Below are positions 31,046-40,106 of a DNA stretch of 64,000 bases, one piece after another (position 1 is the first letter of the stretch; the number at the start of each line of letters is the position of its first letter). Origin of the DNA: Lachnospiraceae bacterium. GTDB lineage: Bacteria; Bacillota; Clostridia; Lachnospirales; Lachnospiraceae. Under the pieces are notes generated by a model. That model did not search any database and had not been told where the DNA came from. It was given only the letters and a program-made list of their open reading frames with translations. The translations under genes and the position numbers were made by a program. Location of the stretch: the NCBI GenBank assembly GCA_014804655.1, contig JAAUZK010000024.1:214357-278356 (forward strand), written 5' to 3'.

Positions 31046-32155
31046 ATGGCGAACAGAATGACAATCAATTATGAGAAGAAACCCTGCTATGACATCGTTT
31101 TTACTGACAGTTTCGATCTACTTCCCGATGAACTGCAGGCATTTGATTCGGAAAACCGGAAGGTAGCGGTTATTACGGATTCCAACACGGAGCGGTTGTT
31201 CGGAAATGCGGTGTGTGATCTGCTGAAAGGCCACTGCAAAGAAGTGATGCTTCATGCATTTCCGGCAGGGGAATCCAACAAGACTTTAGATACGGTTAAG
31301 GACATCTATAAAGCCCTGATCGAGGCAAAGTTTGACCGTAAGGATCTGCTAATTGCCTTGGGCGGCGGTGTTGTGGGAGATGTTACCGGCTATACGGCGG
31401 CTACATATCTTCGCGGAGTAGATTTTATTCAGATTCCGACTACCCTGATTGCCCAGTCGGACAGCAGTATCGGCGGCAAGACAGGCGTAGACTTCGATGG
31501 ATACAAGAATATGGTGGGTGCCTTCTACATGCCGAAGCTGGTCTATATGAATATCGCAGTCCTCAAAGAACTGGACGACAGGCAGTTTTATGCCGGATTT
31601 GCCGAAGTCATGAAACATGGTCTTATTAAAGATGCCATGTTCTATGAATGGCTGCTTGACAATATGTACGGAATCCATGACCGTGAACTTGAGGTGCTTG
31701 AGGAAATGGTTATGAGAAGTTGCACGATCAAGAAACTGGTGGTGGAGAAAGATCCGAAGGAAAAGGGAGATCGCGCACTTTTGAATTTCGGCCACACGAT
31801 CGGGCATGCTATTGAAAAGGCAATGCATTTTGAGATGGTGCACGGAGAATGCATTGCGCTCGGTATGGTTGCCGCTGCATACATCTCATGGAAACATAAT
31901 TGGCTGTCCATGGAGGAATATTATGAAGTGCGGGATATGTTTGTTCCTTTTAATCTCCCGATCAGCATCGATTCCATTGACCCGGAAGAAATTCTGCGAC
32001 TGACGAAATCCGATAAGAAGATGGATGGCGGACAGATCAAATTTGTGTTGCTTAAGAAAGTCGGCAAAGCTGTAATTGACAAGACCATTACCGATGAGGA
32101 GATCTTGGAAGCGATCCGTGAAATATATTTTAGTGATGAGGATGCAAAAGAATGA
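31046..32155 (+). CDS. aroB: 3-dehydroquinate synthase
   Basis: 369 residues. NAD-binding GGGVVGDVTGYTAATYLRGV, then IPTTLIAQSDSSIGGKTGVD and the metal ligand histidines in NFGHTIGHAIEKA and MVHGECIALGM. Second step of the shikimate pathway (DAHP to 3-dehydroquinate). GGAGG before ATG. Overlaps lspA by four bases. Confidence 0.96.
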   Translation: MANRMTINYEKKPCYDIVFTDSFDLLPDELQAFDSENRKVAVITDSNTERLFGNAVCDLLKGHCKEVMLHAFPAGESNKTLDTVKDIYKALIEAKFDRKDLLIALGGGVVGDVTGYTAATYLRGVDFIQIPTTLIAQSDSSIGGKTGVDFDGYKNMVGAFYMPKLVYMNIAVLKELDDRQFYAGFAEVMKHGLIKDAMFYEWLLDNMYGIHDRELEVLEEMVMRSCTIKKLVVEKDPKEKGDRALLNFGHTIGHAIEKAMHFEMVHGECIALGMVAAAYISWKHNWLSMEEYYEVRDMFVPFNLPISIDSIDPEEILRLTKSDKKMDGGQIKFVLLKKVGKAVIDKTITDEEILEAIREIYFSDEDAKE

Positions 32156-32679: not shown

Positions 32680-32699
32680 ATTCCTTCGGAATTTACTTC
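32673..32699. repeat. Perfect palindrome at the end of lspA
   Basis: GAAGTAAATTCC - TTC - GGAATTTACTTC, 12-bp arms with a three-base loop. It spans the lspA stop codon and is nearly identical to the first palindrome of the mutS-mutL element. Could act as a transcript 3' end or stability structure; there is no T-run. Confidence 0.85.
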
Positions 32700-32705
32700 T
32701 CGAGA

Positions 32706-32905
32706 TTTGCTTCGCAAACTCGGATGCGCGGTACGATTTACTTTACGGAATTTGCTTCGCAAACTCGGATGCGCGGTACGATTTACTTTACGGAATTTGC
32801 TTCGCAAACTCGGATGCGCGGTGCGATTTACTTTACGGAATTTGCTTCGCAAACTCGGATACGCGATACGATTTACTTTACAGAATTTATTTTGCGAACT
32901 CGGAT
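32706..32905. repeat. 45-bp tandem repeat, four copies plus a degenerate fifth
   Basis: Copies start at 32706, 32751, 32796 and 32841, with a partial diverged copy from 32886. Each unit contains the palindrome TTTGC-TTC-GCAAA, then ACTCGGATGCGCGGTACG and ATTTACTTTACGGAA. Copies 1 and 2 are identical; copies 3 and 4 differ by a few bases. Because 45 is a multiple of three, open frames run through the array on both strands, giving spurious repeat-coded ORFs. Lies between lspA and rluD. Confidence 0.9.
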
Positions 32906-33832: not shown

Positions 33833-34099
33833 GAAGATTCTGATATCCGATTCTATATTTTATGATTGATAGAAAATGTGCATAAATTTGCAATATAAAC
33901 TGTATATTTTTTGCTTGTACATATATAATTTTTATAAAGAAATTCTAAAGGATTTCTAAACATTCTGTATAAAAAACATTGTTTTTTCTATACATTTGTG
34001 ATAAATTTTTATTAGTGTGTAATAGAAGAATCTTGTAACAAAATATATGTTTTATTACCACTGCATATGATTACGCACATAATACAAAGGGGTATTAGA

Positions 34100-36452: not shown

Positions 36453-36500
36453 TTGACAGATGTATTATACCGCTGTGTAATAATTATACAAACGTATAAT
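36453..36500 (+). promoter_or_regulatory. Promoter and operator of the blaI-like gene
   Basis: TTGACA (36453-36458), 17-base spacer, TGTAAT (36476-36481). Immediately downstream lies a dyad, ATTATAC-AAAC-GTATAAT (36483-36500). A repressor on this dyad would block transcription, consistent with autoregulation by the BlaI-like product; the binding itself is inferred. Confidence 0.65.
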
Positions 36501-36515
36501 TAAGGAGATAAAGCT

Positions 36516-36923
36516 ATGTGTAACACACTGAAAAAGCTGGGAGAAGCCGAGCTGGAGATCATGCAGGTCATCTGGGACAATACGGCACCCGTTACATCCA
36601 ATTATATCCTCAGAGAATTACAAGATCGCAGGAAATGGCAGTTATCCACTCTTATGACCTCTTTATCTAGACTGGCTAATAAAGGGTATATTATCTGCGA
36701 CCGTTCCACGGGTACGAATCTGTATACCGCAATCGTTTCCGAAAACGATTACAAGACCACTGCGGGGAAACATTTTCTGGAACAGCTGTACAACAATTCC
36801 ATACAGAATATGGTAGCTTCCCTATACAGCAGTAAAATGCTTAAGGACTCCGATCTGGCAGAACTTCGGGGTTATCTGGATACATTGGAAAATATGGAGC
36901 ATGGGGAGGCGGAGCAATGTTAG
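36516..36923 (+). CDS. BlaI/MecI/CopY family transcriptional repressor
   Basis: 135 residues. Winged-helix N-terminus GEAELEIMQVIWDNTAPVTS and the recognition region WQLSTLMTSLSRLANKGYI, typical of BlaI/MecI. Such repressors are cleaved or released when the linked BlaR1-type M56 protease senses its signal. No beta-lactamase gene is adjacent, so the inducer here need not be an antibiotic. Overlaps the M56 gene by seven bases. Confidence 0.9.
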   Translation: MCNTLKKLGEAELEIMQVIWDNTAPVTSNYILRELQDRRKWQLSTLMTSLSRLANKGYIICDRSTGTNLYTAIVSENDYKTTAGKHFLEQLYNNSIQNMVASLYSSKMLKDSDLAELRGYLDTLENMEHGEAEQC

Positions 36924-38374
36924 AGCGTATATTTCTTACTGTTTTAAGCACTTCATTGGTGACAAGCATCATCATTATACTTCTCATGATTCTGTCACCC
37001 TTTATCAACAGACGCTATGCCGCCAAATGGAAATATTGGGTTTGGATTCTGCTTGCGCTGCGCTTGATGATACCTTTCAATATGTCAGATATGCAAAATA
37101 TGCTCGAAAACTTAAGCCGGAGTCTGACGGACGTAGTAATGCCGTACGAGAGTAATACTTATAAGTCCGACACTGCCGGACCAACGATGCAGACATCACA
37201 GAAGATCCTGTTGGAAATACCATCGCGAATGACAGAACCTCTATCACCGCCAAAAAAGATTGGGGCAACCTCTAACGTCACATTTCTTATGATTGTGGAA
37301 TTTATTTGGCTGACAGGCGGGATACTCTTTAGCGCCGTACATCTGTGCAGCTATCTGTTATATAGACGGAAGATAAATCAGAATGGGCACCGGATCGTGA
37401 ATGACTCCATCTGTGTTCTGTATGATAAACTGTTTGATGAATTACAGCTTGACCGGCGCATCCCTATAGTAGTCTGCGACAGGGCAGACAGTCCGATGGT
37501 TCTGGGATTTATTCATCCTGTTCTGGTTCTGCCGGCAGAAGAATATTCTGACGAAGAATTATACTTTATCTTCAAACATGAGTTAATCCATTACAAGCGG
37601 CATGACGTCTGCTTTAAACTGCTTTTTGTACTGGCTAACGCAGTTCATTGGTTTAATCCTGTCGTCTGGCTTATGCAGAGAGAAGCGGTAGTGGATATGG
37701 AATTGTCCTGCGATGAAAGCGTAATGCTCAATGCGGACTATACTGCCAGAAAAACTTACACCGAGATACTTTTTTCTATACTGCATAAAAAATGTACGAA
37801 TAAAACTCCTTTATCCACACAGTTTTACGGTGGGAAACAGGTGATGAAGAAACGGTTTCGGAACATTCTTGAACGCTCGGGCAAGCGAAGCGGATTATAC
37901 ATACCGTTCTGCACCCTGGGTCTTGTCATGGGGCTTGGTTTCCTAATCGGATGCTCTGTTTCCGAACCTGACCGCTTGGAGAAAACTTCAGCTGAAGAGG
38001 GTGCTTTAGAAGGAATCGTGGCGAATAGCGTAGATGTCCCGGACATTGTACTGAATCACACAAAAGAACTGGTTTCGGAATGGTATGCGGTCGCTCAGGC
38101 GGACTTTCCGGATTACGGTTATGCCAACTGGAGGATTGAGTTATTAACCCATTGCCATACTTATGATGATTTTGAAGGTATGACTGTGCAAATCTATCAG
38201 TTAAACTATGAATTATTATCCGAAAAACCCCAAAATATCATGCTGACAGGAGGTATGAGCATCACTGAGGACGGATGGGTCACGCCGGACTATTCCAACA
38301 GCAGATTTTTGGTTTTTCAGCAGAATGGTGACGATCTTTCTTACCTCACCTATTTGTTTGAAAATGACTGTTAA
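36917..38374 (+). CDS. BlaR1-type M56 metallopeptidase, ended early by TAA
   Basis: 485 residues. Membrane helices near 6-27, 38-57 and 118-140, zinc-protease HELIH at about 221-225, a further helix after it (LLFVLANAVHWFNPVVWLM), the conserved ELSCDE, and a helix at about 325-345. The extracytoplasmic C-terminus is short and lacks a penicillin-binding domain. The frame stays open after the TAA at 38372-38374 for another 179 codons, so this product probably lost its C-terminal Cys/His repeat domain by a nonsense change. If functional, the domain needed for signal sensing would be missing. Confidence 0.85.
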   Translation: MLERIFLTVLSTSLVTSIIIILLMILSPFINRRYAAKWKYWVWILLALRLMIPFNMSDMQNMLENLSRSLTDVVMPYESNTYKSDTAGPTMQTSQKILLEIPSRMTEPLSPPKKIGATSNVTFLMIVEFIWLTGGILFSAVHLCSYLLYRRKINQNGHRIVNDSICVLYDKLFDELQLDRRIPIVVCDRADSPMVLGFIHPVLVLPAEEYSDEELYFIFKHELIHYKRHDVCFKLLFVLANAVHWFNPVVWLMQREAVVDMELSCDESVMLNADYTARKTYTEILFSILHKKCTNKTPLSTQFYGGKQVMKKRFRNILERSGKRSGLYIPFCTLGLVMGLGFLIGCSVSEPDRLEKTSAEEGALEGIVANSVDVPDIVLNHTKELVSEWYAVAQADFPDYGYANWRIELLTHCHTYDDFEGMTVQIYQLNYELLSEKPQNIMLTGGMSITEDGWVTPDYSNSRFLVFQQNGDDLSYLTYLFENDC

Positions 38375-38911
38375 CCGCCGGACGAAATATTTACTGATGA
38401 TTTAAGAAATCAGCTTGAAGCGACAGACATTATAGCAGCTTCCGAAAACAGCGATACCACAACGCCTGCATACATCGTGGGAGGTGCATCACAGGAAGCA
38501 AGTGCAGAAACGGTACAGACAGAGAATGAGCAAATGGAGGAGGCCGAGATTAAGGGTGCGGTTCAGGCAGAAGAAATGACGTTTTCATGCGAAGTGTCAG
38601 GCTGCACAGAGACCGAAGCACACCAGCACGGTCTTTGCGGAATTGACGGCTGCATACAGATTGGCGAGCACAGCCACGGCATATGCGACATAGCAGGATG
38701 TACTGAAACAGAAACACATCTGCACAACGGAGAATACTGTTATCCACATAGTGCAGATGATGGACACGCATACCATAATTGCGGCGTATCAGGCTGTACG
38801 GAGAAAACGGCCCATACACACGGGGCTTGTGGAATTGACGGCTGTACACAAATTGGCGAACACCACCACGGAGGAAATAGTGGGGGACATCATCAGTCCG
38901 GTCATCATTAA
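38375..38911 (+). pseudogene. In-frame Cys/His-repeat tail of the M56 gene
   Basis: Same frame as the M56 gene, directly after its stop. It opens with PPDEIFTDDLRNQLEATDI, then a Glu-rich linker and five copies of a 16-residue unit of pattern C-x3-G-C-x5-H-x-H. They start near codon 72 and end in a His-rich tail (GGHHQSGHH). The four-ligand spacing suggests metal binding, zinc or copper class (inferred). The only in-frame internal starts (GTG 38477, ATG 38534) have no ribosome-binding site, so separate translation is unlikely. Ends three bases into the convergent recombinase gene. Confidence 0.7.
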
Positions 38912-39840
38912 GAGTCAAATATCTTAAAATCCTTTCGCGGATGCTTCGTGGTAAGGATATCCCGCTGTTTCGCCGTTGCCACATGGGTGTAGATTTCCGT
39001 GATATTAATGGAACTGTGACCAAGCATCTCCTGAATATAGCGGATATCTACATCGGCTTCCAACAGGCTTGTGGCAAACGTGTGGCGAAACATATGCGGA
39101 GTGATGTGCAGTTCAATAGACGCGAGCGCGCAGTATTTTTGTATCATCCTGCGGACTGACTGGTCGCTCAGCGGTCTTCCTGACAAGTTGGTAAAGAAGT
39201 ACCCGCAATCTTGTATTTCCGCACGAAACTGCTCCCGATAAGTCTCCAATATGCTGATGACATCGTCATTGCCGATCTGGATTCGTCTCTCCTTAGCGCC
39301 TTTGCCGTAGATCAGGATTGTCCTGTCATACAGGTTCACGTCGCTGCCCGCCAGAGAGCACAGCTCCGAGATCCGCATACCGGTGGAAAAGAGCAGTTCG
39401 ATGACTGCCGCGTCGCGGAGCGCGGTTTTCTTTTGATAATCTGTCTTTGCATTTCTATATTGTGAATAAATGGCAGATAGAAACTGCTCCACCGTATGAA
39501 GAGGAATTGTTTTGGGAAGAATAGAGGGCTCTCGGAATTTTATTTGGAGTTTGCTGAACGGATTTCGTTCAATGACTTCTTTGTATTCCAGATAGTGGAA
39601 GAGTGCTTTGAGAGATGCGATCTTGCGTTTCACAGTCTTCGGTTTATAATTTCCGTGCAGGTATGCAATGTAATTTTCTAATACGATAGGCGTAATATCT
39701 GCGATGTCTGTTAGTGCGATTTGTGCTGCAAATTGCCCTAAGTCAATGCGATATGCTTTTAGAGTCTTTTCATCCAGTCGTTTCTGGTATCGGCAATAGT
39801 CCAGATAGTTTTTTATATACTTGTGTAAATCTTTTTTCAT
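38908..39840 (-). CDS. Tyrosine recombinase/integrase (XerC/XerD-like)
   Basis: 310 residues from the ATG at 39840, which follows GGGAG; an upstream in-frame ATG at 39936 adds 32 residues without a site. N-terminal SAM-like core-binding domain, C-terminal catalytic domain with Arg in TGMRISELC (about 155), Lys in YGKGAKERR, H-x-x-R in PHMFRHTF (about 248), LGHSSI, and the Tyr nucleophile in EIYTHV (about 282). All catalytic residues present. No attachment site or phage genes are seen nearby. Confidence 0.9.
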   Translation of the reverse strand: MKKDLHKYIKNYLDYCRYQKRLDEKTLKAYRIDLGQFAAQIALTDIADITPIVLENYIAYLHGNYKPKTVKRKIASLKALFHYLEYKEVIERNPFSKLQIKFREPSILPKTIPLHTVEQFLSAIYSQYRNAKTDYQKKTALRDAAVIELLFSTGMRISELCSLAGSDVNLYDRTILIYGKGAKERRIQIGNDDVISILETYREQFRAEIQDCGYFFTNLSGRPLSDQSVRRMIQKYCALASIELHITPHMFRHTFATSLLEADVDIRYIQEMLGHSSINITEIYTHVATAKQRDILTTKHPRKDFKIFDS

Positions 39841-40106
39841 ATTTTTCTGTTTTCTCCCTTGTAAACATTTCTTATGCAAAATATATTGCAAACAAAACAG
39901 GCAAATCTGCTTGTATGCTGAATATTGTGCTTTCACGTTCCTTGACGTTTAGAAATTTTCACGGGCGCTGCTTTGTCCCAGACTTATATTGTACATGATA
40001 AAACACACAAACCCAATATAAACAACAAAAAAGAATGTAGAATCTTGTTGAATATTAATACAATTATGTTTTTTTATATGTTTTGTATAATAAACGCTCA
40101 AAATAT
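39841..40106. other. AT-rich intergenic region without a recognised gene
   Basis: Between the minus-strand recombinase and the plus-strand kinase-like gene. Both strands lack coding frames with ribosome-binding sites. The distal end carries the promoter described next. Confidence 0.6.

Follow-up and report, generated by a model that had tools for sequence, protein, structure and literature searches.

A Probably Disabled blaI-M56 Operon in a Lachnospiraceae Bacterium and Its Intact Relatives Joining a BlaR1-Like Protease to Cys/His Repeats

The window analyzed here, a 64,000-nt stretch of Lachnospiraceae bacterium contig JAAUZK010000024.1 (GCA_014804655.1, from a gut bacterium; all coordinates count from the window start), probably carries a recently disabled allele of a two-gene blaI-M56 operon that, when intact, would encode a BlaR1-like sensor-protease with a Cys/His, putatively metal-binding, ectodomain (rough probability 0.72). 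The M56 gene of the window (36917..38374, plus strand; Peptidase_M56 E 1.9e-53) specifies a truncated protein of 485 aa that ends at an in-frame TAA (38372-38374). Beyond this codon, the same frame stays open for 178 further codons, up to a stop at 38909-38911; the initial annotation had described this continuation as coherent protein sequence, which it proved to be, although the 179 codons then claimed include the stop. When the bases of the tail were shuffled 20,000 times, 1 shuffle left the frame as open as it is after the TAA. The five C-x3-G-C-x5-H-x-H units reported earlier (38588..38869, plus strand) were likewise recovered under a strict definition and lie far above the residue-shuffle level (exactly five; at most one in 20,000 residue shuffles). 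A C-Y-P-H-S-A-D-D-G-H-A-Y-H core sits between units 3 and 4, a His-rich end follows the last unit, and the tail as a whole, with 11 Cys and 18 His in 178 residues, gave no Pfam match. None of the four internal ATG or GTG codons of the tail (38477, 38534, 38576, and 38594) is preceded by GGAG within 25 bases, in agreement with the earlier remark that internal starts lack ribosome-binding sites.

Relatives with an uninterrupted gene account for the origin of the stop. A search of the operon DNA against 77 genomes of the genus, the bacterium's own among them, recovered the operon at 99-100% DNA identity over its full 2,541 bases in three genomes besides its own (G042, G101, and G056, the last from an assembly with 7% contamination), and in all three the M56::Cys/His frame is unbroken (688 codons from stop to stop, giving a protein of 664 residues); the idea that one ancestral frame had been broken by a stop thus held up. 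Three more syntenic loci, in G027, G043, and a second contig of G056, contain a diverged M56 gene. Homologues of the whole frame with a sense codon in place of the TAA, which the initial annotation had proposed as a check, were found at all six syntenic loci, representing five genomes, and the TAA differs from the codon of the nearest relatives by a single base. Because the relatives' frames are intact and a sense codon occupies the aligned position in every syntenic locus, the TAA, private to the window, is best regarded as a derived nonsense change; taken alone, it amounts to a commonplace loss of function that arose recently. The records carrying the intact fusion are Lachnospiraceae MAGs with isolate names starting Mgla, presumably denoting the bank vole.

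The surrounding genes do not share this defect. When 15 window genes (30.5-46.3 kb) were compared with five relatives, 14 ended within four residues of at least one relative with an uncut frame, and the M56 gene was the sole short one (485 vs. 664 or 823 residues); in the same comparison, the adjacent recombinase was 32 residues longer at the loci with the diverged M56 gene (type B below) than in the window, and in one relative (L047) the gene at 34067 did not form one continuous open frame. Within the same part of the window, a tandem array of 4.8 copies of a 45-bp unit occupies positions 32691-32905, between genes at 32152 and 32924 that resemble lspA and rluD, respectively, as named by eye. 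No Rfam match was obtained in the window.

Upstream of blaI, a promoter-like site (36453..36481, plus strand) consists of TTGACA (36453-36458), a 17-bp spacer, and a -10-like hexamer (36476-36481) that is one base off the perfect consensus seen in the three relatives with the intact fusion (together with the window, type A). In these relatives, TTGACA-17-TATAAT is overlapped by one palindromic operator-like site, O1, and followed by another, O2. In the window, O1 (36464..36481, neither strand being assigned; 7-4-7 in layout) has one mismatch, as opposed to none in the three type A relatives, and the private difference in the -10 hexamer falls within it, while O2 (36483..36500, likewise unstranded) is a perfect ATTATAC-N4-GTATAAT. 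A promoter scan of one relative (L058) returned a 12/12 match, of which the perfection rather than the count is informative, as shuffles of that stretch give about 1.3 weaker matches on average; the same scan found no site in the window, whose sequence is excluded by construction through the rule for the second hexamer. Loss of promoter activity in the window would be the expected consequence of the changed hexamer.

Over a 3.76-kb block, the window shows five private differences (one of which lies right at the alignment edge), comprising one nonsense change, one in the -10 hexamer, one missense change, and two intergenic changes. The other three type A alleles have 3, 4, and 10 private differences, with no nonsense change in blaI or the fusion gene, none in the promoter, and open recombinase frames. 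The chance that four to five random changes include one or more nonsense changes and one or more promoter-hexamer changes is approximately 0.002-0.003 if mutation bias is ignored; pooling the private changes of the four alleles (22 in total) raises the chance of the same double hit to a rough 0.04, a figure that counts against the favored account. On these comparisons, the window operon looks to have been inactivated twice, by the nonsense and the -10 changes.

These observations also bear on other ways of explaining the stop. An assembly or sequencing error, with the genome really holding an intact chimeric gene, would be in keeping with the single-base difference, with the intact relatives, and with the quality of the assembly (4.55 Mb in 60 contigs, 5.6% contamination); such an error is nonetheless improbable, given the second private, disabling-looking change in the promoter of the same operon and the agreement of 14 of the 15 surrounding genes with their relatives, which indicates that the region is not generally error-ridden. 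It is far harder to believe that the TAA is read through or recoded, the product then being a mix of a short and a long form. In favor of this, the tail is free of decay, its protein being 100% identical in G042; a recent change, however, would leave the same identity, the stop is not conserved (a sense codon standing in its place at each syntenic locus), and the promoter has changed too, so that recoding is unsupported.

The gene upstream encodes a repressor of the BlaI/MecI family (36516..36923, plus strand; 135 aa; Penicillinase_R, PF03965, E 1.5e-27) and overlaps the start of the M56 gene by 7 bases. The BlaI half of an earlier assignment to the "BlaI/CopY type" is upheld by the Pfam family and by alignment with the MecI/BlaI chains 1sd6, 1okr, and 1sd4; the CopY half is not, as the best NCBIfam match, CopY/TcrY TIGR02698, scored 66.8 bits, below the cut-off of 121.95. 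The repressor thus shares a superfamily and a best NCBIfam match with the CopY/TcrY copper repressors but differs from them in its sub-threshold score and in overlapping a gene for an M56 protease.

Exact matches to the operator RTTATAC-N4-GTATAAY were confined to the blaI promoter in six of the seven genomes searched, all of them incomplete and in none of which a diverged operator would be registered. The window genome contains one exact site at that promoter, the other site there having one mismatch; the seventh genome (G013) has the pattern only with one mismatch, three of its seven sites lying near its blaI. One-mismatch sites elsewhere (29) are about as numerous as all matches to a reversed-pattern control (33). 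One candidate for a second target, a one-mismatch site present in five of the seven genomes, was set aside as probably not an operator, since it lies inside a sigma-factor-like CDS (by eye) in the one copy that was read. As exact operators occur only at the blaI promoter and one-mismatch sites are near control level, the sequences suggest that the predicted regulon is the blaI operon itself, under autoregulation. A precedent is available from Clostridium thermocellum, for which one report describes a BlaI_1845 regulon, determined by DAP-seq, of one autoregulated operon and BlaI promoter sites arranged for four protomers (PMC8457756). The blaI-M56 operon resembles those blaI-blaR1 operons in its predicted one-operon regulon and its operator-like promoter sites; it differs in its operator sequence, and beta-lactam sensing is assumed for the C. 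thermocellum operons by the authors (PMC8457756).

The truncated M56 protein comprises an M56 domain at residues 8-317, with HELIH at 221-225, and an ectodomain region, D1, at approximately residues 366-485. Where the fourth membrane segment ends, the protein carries the tetrapeptide LIGC (residues 343-346; window 37943-37954), which recurs at the same point as LIGC in the M56 protein of another locus (L134) and as LTAC in a distant M56 protein (L055); both tetrapeptides are lipobox-like. No lipobox-like sequence occurs at this point in five other M56 proteins of the window genome that were compared, out of a genome with 13 distinct M56 places (neighboring matches joined). The protein of an intact relative aligns with Staphylococcus aureus BlaR1 (8exp) at E 7.3e-14 over residues 10-350, HExxH included, and this alignment, together with the Peptidase_M56 match, bears out its earlier description as BlaR1-like. 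Phe303 is aligned with the autocleavage Phe284 (P1') of BlaR1, and the P1 residue is Gln rather than Ser. In the published account of BlaR1, autocleavage is placed at this Phe with Ser at P1, a putative signal-peptidase site, Gly-Gln, is located at the end of the fourth membrane segment, and the cleavage site of the BlaI repressor is given as Asn101-Phe102 (PMC9834060). The position of LIGC suggests that the ectodomain may undergo lipoprotein-like processing. The residues of the window repressor aligned to Asn101-Phe102 are Ser-Leu instead, a substitution that weighs against the favored account.

Comparison with the BlaR1/BlaI and MecR1/MecI systems of staphylococci and bacilli therefore yields a mixed picture. 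The two share an M56 domain with HExxH that is colinear over residues 10-350, an aligned autocleavage Phe, and an upstream partner repressor of the Penicillinase_R family; the fusion differs in having Cys/His repeats in place of the penicillin-binding sensor domain and in scoring far below BlaR1 equivalog cut-offs (the intact relative scored 153.7 bits, the blaR1_generic cut-off being 400, and matched only over residues 12-318). No penicillin-binding sensor domain was detected by Pfam in the truncated protein, the tail, or a type B relative, NCBIfam likewise revealed none, nor was a beta-lactamase or PBP gene noticed in the blaI-M56 operon.

The portion of the frame beyond the TAA is of composite origin. 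Its first part (38375..38482, plus strand), the end of the D1 region and a linker, is still homologous to type B M56 genes; a junction placed by eye at 38483..38503 (plus strand) separates this M56-like 5' side from a 3' side resembling stand-alone Cys/His genes, and in DNA alignment the window accordingly tracks M56 genes to ~38482 and the stand-alone gene of one locus (L061) from ~38503. An open frame with at least two Cys/His units was found in 27 of the 31 sequences scanned (the window and L046-L075): besides the window, these are the three fusion genomes, each represented twice, and 20 loci without M56 in frame (L052-L056 and L061-L075), of which one (L075) is cut at its start, leaving 19 visibly stand-alone. 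The stand-alone proteins, which are membrane proteins of Lachnospiraceae, begin with an N-terminal hydrophobic segment of their own, and GGAG lies within 25 bases upstream of 12 of the 19 (starts chosen by hand). They resemble the tail in their repeat units, core motif, and His-rich end, with up to 78% identity; they differ in that the tail lacks its own start and hydrophobic segment, M56 sequence taking their place upstream of the junction. The stand-alone proteins scanned reached the cut-off of no Pfam or NCBIfam family. Since 19 loci encode Cys/His proteins as separate units that have a hydrophobic segment of their own, the intact gene is, by these alignments, a chimera of an M56 gene and the tail of a Cys/His-repeat protein that occurs alone elsewhere. 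The initial annotation had named two findings that would speak against a single broken gene: an independent start of the Cys/His protein does occur elsewhere, as just described, whereas none of the six syntenic M56 genes ends at the position of the TAA.

The fusion was found in no further genome among 98 genomes (own included), in a contig pattern scan (18 confirmed loci from 41 pattern matches, made with short patterns that reach only fairly close relatives), or among 397 family genomes drawn from a larger group, in which matches other than the window all lay in frames of at most 286 codons. A profile of the Cys/His protein matched no solved structure up to E 10, and the matches listed in open PMC included no publication that describes Cys/His repeats in an M56 protein, a combination not searched by name. 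Carriage of the Cys/His protein by mobile elements was considered and rejected, there being no match in plasmids (DNA or protein) or phages and none confirmed in viral contigs; the M56 protein likewise gave no pattern match in viral contigs.

At the level of the locus, the order cstA-blaI-M56-recombinase is common to seven loci, with cmk next in six (the contig of L051 ends at the recombinase), and the M56 gene of G013 likewise lies between cstA and the recombinase. Type A (the window, G042, G101, and contig C36 of G056) combines D1 with Cys/His repeats, type B (G027, G043, and contig C91 of G056) combines D1 with ~320 further residues, and G013 represents a third form with a short ectodomain that, by eye, resembles the middle part of type B; the locus is accordingly best described as a mosaic in which three alleles bear different M56 ectodomains. 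The type A block is 98.8-100% identical over 36.5-40.0 kb (500-base bins) and the flanking bins fall to approximately 87-99.8%; because the block is near-identical and the flanks are more diverged, it seems to have moved between lineages recently. Included in the exchanged block is a convergent tyrosine recombinase of 342 aa (38908..39936, minus strand; Phage_integrase E 1.3e-43) whose gene overlaps the stop of the tail by 4 bases and whose family is present in 44 of the 77 genus genomes. Members of this family (window 38908-39936 and L104-L133) often contain in-frame stops and sometimes lie near contig ends, as if they represented a decaying mobile gene.

How the fusion arose, and whether it matters, can be construed differently. 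It is possible, albeit unlikely, that the fusion is an accidental by-product of a stand-alone Cys/His gene recombining into the end of an M56 gene, such that the tail adds nothing to signaling and its loss by nonsense mutation is neutral: stand-alone Cys/His genes occupy mostly unrelated neighborhoods, only four genomes with the fusion were found, and adjacency of blaI-M56 to such genes is near chance level. A functionless tail is harder to reconcile with the spread implied by a fused block that is 98.8-100% identical in four genomes with flanks mostly several percent apart, or with the Cys/His part, which shows 0 differences over 426 bases in all three relatives, as opposed to 3 and 4 differences in the 108-base linker of two of them. 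That the adjacent recombinase switches ectodomains by inversion, as in shufflon-like phase variation, is very improbable, even though it abuts the exchanged 3' end in all three alleles (A, B, and C). The exchanged part is not bordered by strong inverted repeats (the longest pair is 29 nt at 76%), inspection by eye of the window ORFs between 30 and 46 kb revealed neither a further Cys/His tail nor one of type B, and the recombinase family, widespread as it is in the genus, had no match to the window M56, blaI, or tail in the short stretch covered at any of 23 loci (L111-L133). Given the want of notable inverted repeats and the absence of linkage at those loci, we think that exchange by homologous or illegitimate recombination is more likely than a dedicated switch.

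The nature of the signal is approached chiefly through the composition of the tail, whose Cys and His content indicates that the ectodomain probably binds metal. In a search with 11 queries around 31 Cys/His loci (a set that includes one place twice, L074 and L097, and two loci, L096 and L102, without a convincing Cys/His protein), a P1B ATPase was found beside one and a blaI-M56 pair beside two orthologous ones (L054 and L055), where the pair adjoins the Cys/His gene with ~50-85 bases, depending on the start chosen, between the M56 and Cys/His genes. Given ~13 M56 genes per 4.5 Mb, about one neighbor match is expected by chance in 338 kb; these finds are therefore not counted as support for metal, although the adjacency in L054 and L055 is closer than the estimate requires. 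A perfect palindrome, TGTCTAC-N4-GTAGACA, lies upstream of blaI in both of these loci. At L057 (6296-9179; G076), an HMA-like protein (a weak match that stays under the Pfam cut-off), a P1B heavy-metal ATPase, and a 113-aa Cys/His protein, secreted-looking and distantly related to the tail, are encoded side by side, and the window's own genome contains a second, small, secreted-looking Cys/His protein (L094, 6933-7286; contig C18 of G000).

A working scheme for the favored account, in which the window holds a disabled allele of a functional sensor operon, can be outlined. The intact 664-residue protein of the relatives consists, as its sequence shows, of a BlaR1-like membrane zinc protease followed by a short D1 and the Cys/His tail. 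The predicted ligand of the extracytoplasmic repeats is a metal of soft or borderline character (Zn, Cd, or Cu, for example), and metal occupancy would be relayed to, and alter, the protease, which would then cleave BlaI or release it from the two operators on its own promoter. Removal of BlaI would induce the operon and lead to more receptor being made; with no further operator detected, the output may include the receptor itself, acting as a surface metal sink. The window protein retains the protease and most of D1 but lacks the tail, and probably much of its expression has been lost as well. A bolder extension, which we consider doubtful, would hold that a BlaR1-type receptor has had its input swapped via a Cys/His metal-binding repeat taken from a separate surface protein; that, with operators nowhere but at its own promoter, it serves both as sensor and as effector, metal freeing BlaI and thereby raising the amount of metal-binding receptor; that the locus is a natural exchange site for ectodomains; and that switching off by two independent hits was selected in the window lineage.

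To our knowledge, the signal of nearly all BlaR1-like M56 receptors is unknown. The present case provides one in which the ectodomain has recently been replaced and relatives of both parents have been identified, and thereby affords a testable guess at a non-beta-lactam signal; moreover, natural alleles that differ most in the ectodomain are available for comparison. The main interest resides in the intact fusion of the relatives, in which a receptor of known kind carries a novel type of ectodomain.
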